From Thermoplasmata archaeon (GTDB lineage Archaea > Thermoplasmatota > Thermoplasmata > Thermoplasmatales > Thermoplasmataceae), in NCBI GenBank assembly GCA_021835025.1, contig JAKBQY010000057.1, positions 1-61,357 on the forward strand: 61,357 bases of DNA, given 5' to 3'. Made by a program: the position numbers and the translations under genes. The notes under the pieces were generated by a model. It did no database searches, had not been told where the DNA came from, and was given only the letters and a program-made list of their open reading frames with translations. Of this stretch, positions 6,951 to 59,950 are shown in pieces (the first letter of the stretch is position 1; each line of letters starts with the position of its first letter).

Positions 6951-7439
6951 ATGATACAATCAAATTCTCTTCAGTTAGGCAAAATTTCTGGTCTTCAGAA
7001 AAATTATCATACTAAAAGTTTCCCGTATAAAAATGTAGAACCTCAAATACAAATAAATAGAACTTATAATCCAAGTTTGAAATTTATTAATTCGGAATTA
7101 TTGGTGAATAAAATTAATAATCTTGAAAATTATATAAAATTCATGGATACGTTTGAAGTTAAATCTTTCCTCAAAGAAAATTTATTTCTTATTGATATTA
7201 TTAATAAAAGTGTATATATAATAAAAAAAATATTTAAAGATATAAAGTTGGAAATATCACTCGAATACGATCCTGAAATTTTAACAGATTCAAGATTTCT
7301 GTATTTAAAAATATATACTAAAGAAACACCCACTAAAGCAATAAAATTGCTCAAAAAATTCGATTATTCCTGGTGGTTGGATATTAAACCAAAAACAAAA
7401 CATAAACTCATTATTGGAGTAGAGTATGAAGACTTTTGA
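6951..7439 (+). CDS. hypothetical partner of HEPN protein, 162 aa
   Basis: The first 75 residues look flexible and are rich in Asn/Lys; the C-terminal part (about 95-162) is a compact alpha/beta segment with SLEYDPEILTDSR, LYLKIYT, a helix, and FDYSWWLDIKP. This C-terminal pattern (acidic 'DPE' loop followed by a strand and a WW motif) resembles small proteins I associate with HEPN/nuclease toxin pairs, but I cannot name a family with certainty. It starts one base after the previous gene and its last 14 bases overlap the HEPN gene, so the three are translationally coupled. Confidence 0.65.
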   Translation: MIQSNSLQLGKISGLQKNYHTKSFPYKNVEPQIQINRTYNPSLKFINSELLVNKINNLENYIKFMDTFEVKSFLKENLFLIDIINKSVYIIKKIFKDIKLEISLEYDPEILTDSRFLYLKIYTKETPTKAIKLLKKFDYSWWLDIKPKTKHKLIIGVEYEDF

Positions 7440-7842
7440 ATGGTTGGATTATCTGAAGTTGGCCATTGATTTTAAAGAGCACATAAAAGAGGATGATCCA
7501 ATGGCAGAAGCTCTTTATAGAACATCTATCAGCAGATCTTATTATTTTGTATTCCATTATAGCCAGGATTATTTGCAATTACTTGGAATAACCTTTAAAA
7601 AAACTCCAAATGTGCATAAAGAAGTTTGTAAAGTTCTTGAAGATTTGTCCAAAAAAGAAAATAATTATAAAATTTCAAAAGATTTAAAGGAAATTAGTGT
7701 AGATCTTGAAAGACTTAGAACTCTGAGAAATAAAGCTGATTATGATGAATATATGAAAAATATAAGAAAGGAAACAGAAACCTCATTAATTATTAGCAAA
7801 AATATAAAAGAAATTGTTGAAAAGTTAAAAACGTTTAAATAA
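7426..7842 (+). CDS. HEPN domain protein (UPF0332-like)
   Basis: All-helical 138-residue protein with the features of small HEPN (higher eukaryote/prokaryote nucleotide-binding) proteins: SRSYYFVFHYSQ early (R37-Y40), a mid-chain PNVHKEV (H64), and the late motif LRTLRNKADYDEYM (R101, N102, D105, Y106), which corresponds to the RxxADY version of the HEPN signature. HEPN proteins of this kind are often RNase toxins or work beside a nucleotidyltransferase; no such transferase is present here. It overlaps the preceding gene by 14 bases and is the last gene of a repeat-flanked cassette. Toxin activity is inference. Confidence 0.75.
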   Translation: MKTFEWLDYLKLAIDFKEHIKEDDPMAEALYRTSISRSYYFVFHYSQDYLQLLGITFKKTPNVHKEVCKVLEDLSKKENNYKISKDLKEISVDLERLRTLRNKADYDEYMKNIRKETETSLIISKNIKEIVEKLKTFK

Positions 7843-10048: not shown

Positions 10049-10492
10049 ATGTTGGAAAATATCGATAAAAAAGATATGAAAATAATAGATTATTTGAAAG
10101 AACATGGAAGGGACAAAATATCGGATATTTCGAATTCTCTTGATATTCCTAGGGCCACAATTTTTGAAAGAATGGAAAGACTCAAAAAAGATGGTTTTAT
10201 CAAAAAATTTACAGTTGATCTTAATTATGAAAAACTTGGTTATTCTGTATTAGCATACATACTTATCGAATATGACCCAAAGGCAAAAACAGATCAGAGA
10301 ACACTGTGCTTCAATCTTTCAAAACTCGATAACGTCATTTCAGCATCAATTGTAACCGGAAACTGGGATATAATTATAATGTCATCACATAAATCAATGA
10401 AGGACCTTTCAACATTTGTGCTTGAAAAATTAAGAGTTATGGATGGTATTGGTAAAAGTTTAACGGTGCCATTATTCGAAAAAGTATTATAA
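10049..10492 (+). CDS. Lrp/AsnC family transcription regulator
   Basis: 147-residue feast/famine regulator. N-terminal helix-turn-helix (DKKDMKIIDYLKEHGRD, then ISDISNSLDIPRATIFERME, residues 5-45) followed by a C-terminal RAM domain (about 70-145) for effector binding and oligomerisation. Divergent to the asparagine synthetase-like gene, so control of that gene by amino-acid level is likely, echoing the bacterial asnC-asnA pair; this is inference from context. The next feature downstream is tRNA-Ser. Confidence 0.92.
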   Translation: MLENIDKKDMKIIDYLKEHGRDKISDISNSLDIPRATIFERMERLKKDGFIKKFTVDLNYEKLGYSVLAYILIEYDPKAKTDQRTLCFNLSKLDNVISASIVTGNWDIIIMSSHKSMKDLSTFVLEKLRVMDGIGKSLTVPLFEKVL

Positions 10493-10840: not shown

Positions 10841-11863
10841 TCATTTAATTTTTTCGGCGTTTAGATATAATGTTTCCATTCTTATGTCCTCTATTCTTGT
10901 TAATCTTCCACCAACCGTGAATACTTGATTCTCTGTTTCTATTATATATGAATTTTTATATCCAGGTATAATATCTGTACCTTTGATTATTCCGGACACG
11001 TCAACTTCCCCATTCTGTGTTATTCCTATTACCCTTCCATCAAGTTTATACCCATTGTTTAAAAACATATTAATGGCTTCACATGATATCCATGATGTAT
11101 TGAAAATCCATTTATTGTGTATCTGGAATTTTGAGATATATATTGAAGGTTTCCATATAATATTATAGTAATAATAATTTATTATATGAATCATTTCCTC
11201 TTCCTGAAAATCAATGGCGTATTTACTTTTTATATTAAAATTATCAACCTGTACAATAGATTCATTTCTATCCTTGATAATAATTTCTGGAGATATTCCT
11301 GGCCTTCTTTTTATCACTGCTATATTCATAAGGTCATTAATATCATAACGATCTGAATCCGGGAATATTGTCAAAAATATAGAGACTCCCCTCTCCGAAG
11401 CTTCTATGAGATATCTATCAAGATATTTTAAAAGTGGCAGTTTAAATGATGCAATTATCTCATTTTCTGCCCTTATTACCATGTCTTTCATTTGTTCCCT
11501 GATTAACAATTCATTGTCCAGATACCATAAATATGGATTGTATTTTTTGAAATTTGGTGCTGAGTTTTCAACTACCTTTGCTAGATTTTCCTTATATGTT
11601 TTGAGATCATCAATGATTTTGTTCAATGCTATTTCCACCGGTACAGCTCTGTATATCTTCTTCTTCCCAGGGCTAACTTCTATTAAGCCTTTAGTCATTA
11701 AATTGTTGAAAAGGTCATAAACTCTTGGTTGTGGTATACCTGCAGTTGAAACAATTGAGGTCGATGTTTGAGGTCCATTTAATAGAAGAGTTTTATACAC
11801 CTTTATTTCATACGGTGACAGGCCGAATTTCGATAATTTTTCAAAGACTTCATCATCATTCAT
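10841..11863 (-). CDS. TrmB-family transcription regulator
   Basis: 340-residue regulator. The N-terminal winged helix (about 1-75) has the TrmB family pattern: LSKFGLSPYEIKVYKTLL, then GIPQPRVYDLFNNLMTKGLI. A coiled segment links it to the TrmB C-terminal region (from about residue 105) with the phospholipase D-like and sugar-binding fold. Family members sense sugars or related ligands and act as repressors or activators of transport and glycolytic/gluconeogenic genes. No sugar transport genes are adjacent, so its targets are unknown. Confidence 0.9.
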   Translation of the reverse strand: MNDDEVFEKLSKFGLSPYEIKVYKTLLLNGPQTSTSIVSTAGIPQPRVYDLFNNLMTKGLIEVSPGKKKIYRAVPVEIALNKIIDDLKTYKENLAKVVENSAPNFKKYNPYLWYLDNELLIREQMKDMVIRAENEIIASFKLPLLKYLDRYLIEASERGVSIFLTIFPDSDRYDINDLMNIAVIKRRPGISPEIIIKDRNESIVQVDNFNIKSKYAIDFQEEEMIHIINYYYYNIIWKPSIYISKFQIHNKWIFNTSWISCEAINMFLNNGYKLDGRVIGITQNGEVDVSGIIKGTDIIPGYKNSYIIETENQVFTVGGRLTRIEDIRMETLYLNAEKIK

Positions 11864-11914
11864 AAAACATAATTACATGCATATAAATAAATATTTATAT
11901 AGAATAGTATAAAT

Positions 11915-12502
11915 TTATAATTTACCAATATCATTTACTATGTTGATATCCAGTGGTTGTTCGCCTGGTTCCCATCCAGCAGGTATTGCACACATATGCC
12001 CTGCACCCTCAGGTGTATCATGCAAAAGTTTTAATCCCATGAATGCTCCATATATGTGCCTTACATCTTTTCCAAGCCCATCGTTGAATACTGAAAGGTA
12101 TTGGACTTTTCCTTCCGGATCAATTATCACTAATCCTCTCTGCGCCTGATATCCTTTTGTGTCCAGAAATCCATAATTTTTAGCTATTTCCTTTGTGTAG
12201 TCATCTATCAATGGTATTTTGCTTTTGCTCACTCTTGGCGAAGTATCACACCAGGCCTTATGTGAAAATACTGAATCTTCACTGATCCCAAAAACCTGTG
12301 CCCCCTCTTTTAAGAACTTGTCATAAGAACCCATCAAAGCTTCAATATCTGTTGCGCAGACAAATGTAAAATCTCCAGGGTAGAAGGTCAGAATGACCCA
12401 TTTGCCTCTGTAATCCGATAGCTTAACCGTTTTTATTTCCTTTTTTTCCGGGAAATATGTATCTGATTTAAATTCCGGTGCTGCTTCTCCTATCTGTATC
12501 AT
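11915..12502 (-). CDS. peroxiredoxin (2-Cys, AhpC type)
   Basis: Thiol peroxidase that reduces hydrogen peroxide and organic peroxides. In 195 residues it has the catalytic segment FYPGDFTFVCATD with the peroxidatic cysteine around residue 50, and the downstream GHMCAIPAGWEPGE with a likely resolving cysteine near residue 170. The substitution of Ala for the common Pro after the catalytic Cys (VCATD versus VCPTE) is mild. A TATA-like stretch lies near 12526-12537 on the minus strand, 25-30 bases before the ATG. It is divergent from the DtxR-type iron/manganese regulator, a sensible partner for oxidative defence. Confidence 0.92.
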   Translation of the reverse strand: MIQIGEAAPEFKSDTYFPEKKEIKTVKLSDYRGKWVILTFYPGDFTFVCATDIEALMGSYDKFLKEGAQVFGISEDSVFSHKAWCDTSPRVSKSKIPLIDDYTKEIAKNYGFLDTKGYQAQRGLVIIDPEGKVQYLSVFNDGLGKDVRHIYGAFMGLKLLHDTPEGAGHMCAIPAGWEPGEQPLDINIVNDIGKL

Positions 12503-15941: not shown

Positions 15942-16327
15942 AACACTCTAATAAGCATATCTTTATTAAAAGTTTCTCTAATGAAAATTTAAATGATTAT
16001 ATTCATAAAATTTATTGATTTATAAAAGAATAATGAGGGTTTGCTAAATAATATAAAAGTAGATGGATAATAATATATAAAATACTTATATAAAACTTAT
16101 ATATTTTTATCTGTTATATAAATTTTATGTATTATTTTGACATTTAAAAATATTATGTTAATCACGTTCTAAATCAAGAAATTACAGGATTTCTGTTTCA
16201 TTTATTAAAAATTAACATTATCGATTTTAATATTTACCTACCTATAAAAAAATAAAATTTCGGCAATTGCCTTTTTTTTAAAAAAATTCGTAATAGAATT
16301 TAAATATAATAAAAAAATAAATAAATA
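15942..16327. promoter_or_regulatory. regulatory region upstream of PEP synthase
   Basis: 386 bases without a gene, extremely AT-rich. It contains the 13-mer ATTTCGGCAATTG (16257-16269), which also occurs upstream of malic enzyme at 53991-54003; here it is extended to the palindrome GGCAATTGCC (16262-16271) followed by eight T. A TATA box (TTTAAATAT, 16299-16307) lies about 25 bases before the ATG at 16328, so the mRNA is probably leaderless. Confidence 0.6.
16257..16269 (+). promoter_or_regulatory. shared 13-bp element, PEP synthase copy
   Basis: ATTTCGGCAATTG, identical to the copy upstream of the malic enzyme gene. It ends 58 bases before the start codon (59 for malic enzyme) and about 29 bases before the TATA box. 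An activator or repressor site common to two pyruvate/PEP enzymes is the likely meaning. Confidence 0.55.
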
Positions 16328-53990: not shown

Positions 53991-54003
53991 ATTTCGGCAA
54001 TTG
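53991..54003 (+). promoter_or_regulatory. shared 13-bp element, malic enzyme copy
   Basis: ATTTCGGCAATTG, identical to 16257-16269 upstream of PEP synthase. It ends 59 bases before the ATG at 54063 and about 32 bases before the TATA-like TTTAATATAAA (54036-54046). The copy here lacks the palindromic extension and T-run seen at the other site. Confidence 0.55.
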
Positions 54004-54062
54004 ATGAAAATTACATTTAATAATATACGTAAAGTTTTAATATAAAATTTATATCTATTTTT

Positions 54063-59299: not shown

Positions 59300-59950
59300 G
59301 TGGGATCAAAAGATAAATGGGAATCTTGGGGTAAAGATACCTATTCAAAACGGTTTAAAATATTATTGGAAGCGGAGGCCGAGATATCTGGTCTAGCAGA
59401 GGAGTTCTTTGCAAGTAGGGAAGATGTTCCCTTTGTTAAGACAAGACCTAAATCTCTTCCCTCCTTATTGGGAAAGGTTCACAGAAAATTAAGAGAAGGG
59501 GATGAAAAAATTACAGATTTCGTCTCCCAAGAGAGTCTATCAGACAATCTGTTTGTGAACAAAAAAGGGATCTCAGACCTTGTAGGATTAAGATTGATAT
59601 TTCTTAGGTTTCCAAACACTGAACCAATTCGGGTGAACTTTATCACCAATTTTTTGGTTCGTGAACATGGTTTTAAAGCGTTGGTCATGAACGACGTGAA
59701 AAGCAATGAGAGTGGGTATAAAGCATTTCATTTCAAATTACAGTTTCCCAAGAAGTATGACAGTATCAACCTTGAGATTCAATGTATGGGGATAGTACAA
59801 CACCTGTGGATGGAGTCAGAACACAATCTTTTGTACAAACAAGAAAAGTCCCTGTCTAAAGAACAACTGGAATATATGAAAGGGCTTTATAATCATTTAT
59901 CTGGTGTTCTCCGAGAAATAGAGAGTATTCTTTTCCTTGCATGGGATTAG
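59300..59950 (+). CDS. stand-alone RelA/SpoT synthetase domain protein
   Basis: 216-residue nucleotidyltransferase of the RelA/SpoT type, expected to move pyrophosphate from ATP to a GDP/GTP or another acceptor. No HD hydrolase or regulatory domain is present. The catalytic features are in order: R49-x-K51 in TRPKSLPSLLGKVHRK (ATP binding), D93 and R98 in ISDLVGLRLIFLR, the G-loop ESGYKAFHF with Y140 and H144, and EIQCMGIVQHLW then MESEHNLLYK (E159, Q161, H168, W170, E174, H175, Y179, K180). GTG start with no clear ribosome-binding site. Length and plan are those of small alarmone synthetases or ToxSAS toxins. Such genes are rare in archaea; an origin by transfer from bacteria is likely. Confidence 0.85.
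   Translation: MGSKDKWESWGKDTYSKRFKILLEAEAEISGLAEEFFASREDVPFVKTRPKSLPSLLGKVHRKLREGDEKITDFVSQESLSDNLFVNKKGISDLVGLRLIFLRFPNTEPIRVNFITNFLVREHGFKALVMNDVKSNESGYKAFHFKLQFPKKYDSINLEIQCMGIVQHLWMESEHNLLYKQEKSLSKEQLEYMKGLYNHLSGVLREIESILFLAWD

Follow-up and report, generated by a model that had tools for sequence, protein, structure and literature searches.

A conserved 18-bp dyad upstream of the PEP synthase, malic enzyme and HMG-CoA synthase genes is a predicted operator in Acidiplasma and its relatives

Two genes in the window, a 61,357-nt stretch of DNA from a Thermoplasmataceae archaeon, carry the same 13-mer, ATTTCGGCAATTG, at nearly the same distance from their start codons, which raises the question of whether one regulator controls them both. 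The copies are exact and precede the genes for PEP synthase (PEPS) and malic enzyme (ME), ending 58 and 59 nt, respectively, ahead of the start codon, and TATA-like boxes begin 29 and 32 nt past them, in line with the spacing of about 30 nt given in an earlier, sequence-only reading of the window. That reading had noticed no third copy, and indeed exactly two exact copies of ATTTCGGCAATTG turned up when all 65 contigs of the genome (1.68 Mb) were searched. On its own the pair is suggestive, not decisive, because about one same-position pair of shared 13-mers is expected genome-wide by chance (mean 1.0, maximum 3, in shuffled upstream regions). The genome has a G+C content of about 33%, and a chance repeat of the kind expected in AT-rich DNA would be consistent with the 121 repeated 13-mers with at least 5 G/C inside the window alone and with the 9 of 100 shuffles that equalled the count of near-matches to the 13-mer in the window. 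The named relatives of this genome are Acidiplasma aeolicum (PEPS 79% identical) and Ferroplasma acidarmanus, and we therefore treat the window as part of an Acidiplasma species; for the scans described below its genome (G000) was rebuilt to 1.66 Mb.

The 13-mer proved to be a real element but an incomplete one, comprising one half and the centre of an 18-bp imperfect palindrome, TTTCG-N8-CGAAA, with the consensus TTTCGGCAATTGCCGAAA (Table 1). In each promoter the surrounding TATA region is also conserved, as GTTAAATA/TTTAAATA near the same TATA position in PEPS orthologs and as GTAAAGT[TA]TTAATA in all aligned ME orthologs. Elsewhere in the window, a RelA/SpoT-domain protein (PF04607, E = 2.5e-9) is encoded at 59300-59947 (+), ppGpp-type enzymes being unusual in archaea, and at 6951-7842 (+) the gene for a HEPN-domain protein (PF05168) follows and overlaps a small one that matches no Pfam family, a pair that could be a HEPN-type toxin-antitoxin system.

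Table 1. Features of the predicted operator, its two genes in the window and the candidate binders. Positions are those of the window unless a contig is named.
Feature	Position	Strand	Remarks
PEPS operator dyad (predicted), TTTCGGCAATTGCCTTTT	16258..16275	.	Left half strong; centre 61 nt before ATG; holds 13-mer 16257-16269
PEPS TATA-like box, TTTAAATA	16299..16306	+	36 bp downstream of dyad, centre to centre
PEP synthase (PEPS) gene, 784 aa	16328..18682	+	PF01326, PF00391, PF02896
ME operator dyad (predicted), TTTCGGCAATTGATGAAA	53992..54009	.	Centre 62 nt before ATG; holds 13-mer 53991-54003
ME TATA-like box, TTTTAATA	54036..54043	+	About 39 bp downstream of dyad centre
Malic enzyme (ME) gene, 436 aa	54063..55373	+	PF00390, PF03949
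TrmB-type regulator gene, 340 aa	10841..11863	-	PF01978 + PF11495; leading candidate dyad binder
Lrp/AsnC regulator gene, 178 aa	G000 contig C26:11526-12062; also L278/L279	-	Strongly conserved

Of the family's 77 genomes, 14 have PEPS, namely three of Acidiplasma, ten of Ferroplasma and one (G020) whose genus we infer to be Picrophilus-like, and an imperfect palindrome stands at the same promoter position in all 14. In 12 of these promoters (all Ferroplasma, A. aeolicum and G020) the pattern CG-N8-CG falls at exactly -67 to -56 from the ATG, while the other two, from the window's genome and the closest Acidiplasma, have a left half of the form TTTCG[GT]CAATTG with its CG at the same -67. Of the two halves, the left is the stronger in Acidiplasma (TTTCGGCAATT) and the right in Ferroplasma and G020 (for example CGTGAATTGCCGAAAA and CGTTGATTGACGAAAA). 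The relatives' PEPS promoters lack the exact 13-mer because the strong half switches sides, and such turnover of half-sites about a fixed centre is what would be expected of an operator for a symmetric dimer. PPDK promoters in other genera have no dyad.

The ME promoters show a comparable pattern. The motif TCG[GA]C[AG]ATTG starts at -69 or -70 (CG at -68 or -69) in 10 of 11 Acidiplasma and Ferroplasma ME promoters, and with G056, which also has the element, the count becomes 11 of 12 readable species; the site has been lost in A. aeolicum (G002). Farther upstream these promoters are only 28-40% identical, about background, which makes the element and TATA region conspicuous. The ME promoter of G020, left out of the count, has a weak ATTTCGACAATATG at another distance, and this gene is a doubtful carrier of the site. 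In two other genera of the family (G008, locus L072, and G018, locus L070), a perfect TTCG-N8-CGAA is centred at -68 before ME. In one relative, G009 (contig C13:2149-3469), the ME gene is split across frames with an internal TGA, owing to decay or an assembly error. We take the 13-mer to be real because the element is conserved in relatives. Neither outcome that the sequence-only reading had named as refuting was seen: element and spacing persist in relatives, and the genome holds no further exact copies. A chance repeat is hard to reconcile with an element that keeps its position in the promoters of 14 PEPS and 11 ME genes while the strong half-site changes sides, nor does it agree with the confirmed prediction for a third promoter described below, and we consider it extremely improbable.

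The third promoter emerged from a scan of 1476 upstream regions of the window's genome with a symmetrised matrix built from the sites at PEPS and ME. The top match outside the training sites was a dyad, ATACGTGAATAAACGAAT, between the gene for HMG-CoA synthase and a divergent stomatin-like gene. HMG-CoA synthase was then searched for in eight relatives, of which seven had the gene, and a dyad was centred at -52 or -53 before it in all seven (ATACGTGAATAAACGAAT, ATACGTCAATTAGAGAAA, TATAGTCAATTGACGTTA, TGTAGTCAATTGACGTCA, TTACACCGATTGCCGAAA, AATCGTTAATCAACGAAT and TATCGGTTAACAGCGAAA). With the matrix derived from PEPS and ME only, all HMG-CoA synthase sites lay above the 99.9th percentile of the fixed-position background, and holding out PEPS or ME in turn gave the same result. 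The flank upstream of the dyad in these promoters is near background identity (0.34-0.45), and the adjoining BRE/TATA block is highly conserved.

Carriers of the dyad are very rare, which bears on whether it might be a general upstream promoter element or a chromatin-protein site and not a specific operator. A nearly constant spacing from the TATA box, seen for each gene taken singly, would suit such an element, but a score of 15 or more is reached by only two of 1465 upstream regions of the window's genome, those of PEPS and ME (shuffles would give 0.2), and we regard a general element as very unlikely. The strict dyad pattern TTTCGNCAATNNNCG has five matches in eight whole genomes, four of them in PEPS promoters. 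Across about 500 kb of fetched loci from the three genera, most of which were chosen for these very genes (140 kb of Ferroplasma G011 were not), every match above 14.8 precedes PEPS, ME, HMG-CoA synthase or one 2-oxoacid oxidoreductase gene.

Matches scoring 9-13 in the window's genome are near chance, as are the weaker matches before its lipoyl synthase, enolase, thiolase and Alba genes; the first of these, a dyad-like ATTAGGCAATTAACAAAA (contig C22:2276-2295), is centred about 63 nt before the lipoyl synthase gene. A good match at the right distance in the KDG aldolase promoter (contig C55:99797-99816) is absent in G001, G002 and G011 and was set aside as chance. In G011 (L093, 1501-1518), a 2-oxoacid:acceptor oxidoreductase alpha gene, divergent from a MarR gene, has the exact 13-mer some 60 nt ahead of it. 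Neither gene was kept as a target: the strong site before the oxidoreductase has no counterpart at the G000 ortholog, and the promoter of the G000 ortholog of the MarR gene is without the element.

A regulator shared by the two genes and bound just upstream of both promoters, as the sequence-only reading had proposed, is now the best explanation, its binding being predicted from conservation in relatives. From the sequence, symmetry, position, conservation and genomic rarity of the dyad we infer that a dimeric winged-helix transcription factor binds the 18 bp, whose CG-centred half-sites are one helical turn apart. With TATA boxes read off the aligned promoters, the centres of dyad and TATA box are 36 bp apart at PEPS, 39 bp at ME and about 28 bp at HMG-CoA synthase, which places the last dyad about one helical turn nearer to its TATA box. 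Such positions, 28-39 bp upstream of TATA, are where archaeal activators bind, and because the dyad is so placed at all three genes, the bound factor would most likely activate PEPS, ME and HMG-CoA synthase together (in Acidiplasma, Ferroplasma and the Picrophilus-like genome, the ME gene of G020 being doubtful). Repression from the same operator is an unlikely alternative: access of the basal factors can also be hindered from an upstream site, but the dyad is clear of BRE/TATA, and upstream TrmB sites in Pyrococcus and haloarchaea mostly activate, whereas sites on or after BRE/TATA repress (PMC4706686, PMC10817205). Since about 20-30 nt separate the TATA boxes from the ATG, the transcripts of all three genes are probably near-leaderless and the element itself is probably untranscribed; an RNA element is thus unlikely. 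The explanation as a whole, in which an 18-bp dimer operator is bound by one winged-helix factor that most likely activates the three genes, is in our judgement probable.

Which factor would bind is a question on which the window itself offers candidates. The sequence-only reading had named a TrmB and an Lrp regulator encoded in the window, and the two fared differently: the TrmB has an ortholog in all PEPS genomes and lies near PEPS, but the Lrp gene (10049-10492) adjoins that for TrmB only in the closest Acidiplasma relative. Both domains of the TrmB pass their curated cut-offs (PF01978 winged helix, E = 1.3e-22; PF11495 sugar-binding, E = 3.8e-57), and the protein aligns over its full length with Pyrococcus furiosus TrmB 3QPH (residues 5-328), including the sugar-contact motif VGG...IED (Gly, Glu and Asp in G-x5-ED); the sugar contacts reviewed for TrmB, Gly337, Glu343 and Asp344, have the same spacing (PMC4158304). 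Every one of the 14 genomes with PEPS has a close ortholog (73-93% identity), as does G079; identity in other genera is 44% at most. Wherever TrmB and PEPS are on one contig they are within about 10 kb of each other (12 of 12 genomes; 4.5 kb in the window), with varying genes between them; G020 has the PEPS pair in inverted orientation with respect to TrmB, yet still next to it. The TrmB gene also forms a pair with a peroxiredoxin gene (10841-12502, -) that is kept in every Acidiplasma, Ferroplasma and Picrophilus-like locus that is long enough.

We rank this TrmB first because it co-occurs and clusters with PEPS, because haloarchaeal TrmB binds a palindrome upstream of ppsA and activates that gene (PMC10817205) and because an upstream TrmBL1 site means activation in Pyrococcus (PMC4706686). 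It is the best candidate for the dyad binder, at a likelihood that we put just short of even. The candidate TrmB would bind when sugar is absent and would then turn on the supply of PEP and NADPH together with the HMG-CoA step of isoprenoid lipid synthesis. We caution that the three genera may be one clade and that the co-occurrence of TrmB and PEPS could reflect common descent. TrmB autoregulation through the dyad was rejected, since the TrmB promoter has no dyad in 13 species, and this lack counts against TrmB as the binder.

The same operator might instead be read by another protein, such as the 178-aa Lrp/AsnC regulator or some other winged-helix factor, an alternative that we hold to be a serious one of somewhat lower probability than TrmB. 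The perfect ME dyads of G008 and G018 occur in genomes that have no close ortholog of TrmB, and they point to a regulator of wider distribution. In each of the 11 genomes examined the 178-aa Lrp is conserved (80-97%). Its own promoter has a dyad-like site in the two Acidiplasma genomes G000 and G001, where the score of 9.1 is near the 99th percentile, and a clear TTCG-N8-CGAA, scoring 13.4, in the two Ferroplasma genomes G011 and G055, as autoregulation would give. Against this protein, the own-promoter sites, confined to those four genomes, are at differing distances and are missing in other Ferroplasma, A. aeolicum and the Picrophilus-like genome, and no genomic link of its gene to PEPS or ME was seen. 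Archaeal Lrp/AsnC operators (Sa-Lrp, BarR) are similarly bound by winged-helix dimers, and Sa-Lrp binds its own control region (PMC3584215), a behaviour that the Lrp found here resembles in some species, although its site is unconserved across species.

For TrmB, the first-ranked candidate, the closest parallels are in two other archaeal groups. The Thermococcales glycolytic motif of TrmBL1/Tgr, TATCAC-N5-GTGATA, is likewise palindromic and about 17-18 bp long, occurs in the promoters of central carbon genes, is recognized by a sugar-sensing TrmB with the same two domains as the protein in the window, and upstream of BRE/TATA activates gluconeogenic genes; the dyad at PEPS is also upstream and probably activating. 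Its half-site is unlike the TTTCG.C found here, TrmBL1/Tgr has many more targets than were found here, and the available portion of PMC4706686 mentions neither HMG-CoA synthase nor malic enzyme among them; nor was HMG-CoA synthase found as a reported target in the available portions of the TrmB literature. In Halobacterium salinarum and Haloarcula hispanica, according to PMC10817205, TrmB has a partly palindromic motif upstream of ppsA and activates PEP synthase without sugar, and the regulon also holds fbp, gapII and por, with malic enzyme unmentioned in that paper. Haloarchaeal binding was shown by ChIP-seq, whereas here it is predicted.

A palindromic operator of an archaeal regulator that controls PEP synthase is thus of a kind already known, but the operator sequence, the target set and the link to HMG-CoA synthase appear to be new, and full-text searches of the open-licence literature yielded no operator or regulon that had been defined for Acidiplasma, Ferroplasma or Picrophilus. 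What the analysis provides is an 18-bp operator open to testing, together with three genes as its targets, in as many as 14 species, and a candidate for its regulator. We suggest, tentatively and at somewhat less than even likelihood, that one sugar-responsive regulator acts jointly on PEPS, ME and HMG-CoA synthase, as a Thermoplasmatales regulon with an operator sequence of its own. If so, control of PEP synthase by TrmB-type proteins, as it is known in Thermococcales and in haloarchaea, would operate in Thermoplasmatales as well, through another recognition sequence, and would extend to isoprenoid lipid synthesis; since the HMG-CoA synthase gene stands at the start of membrane-lipid synthesis, gluconeogenesis and NADPH supply would be tied to the making of the archaeal membrane.
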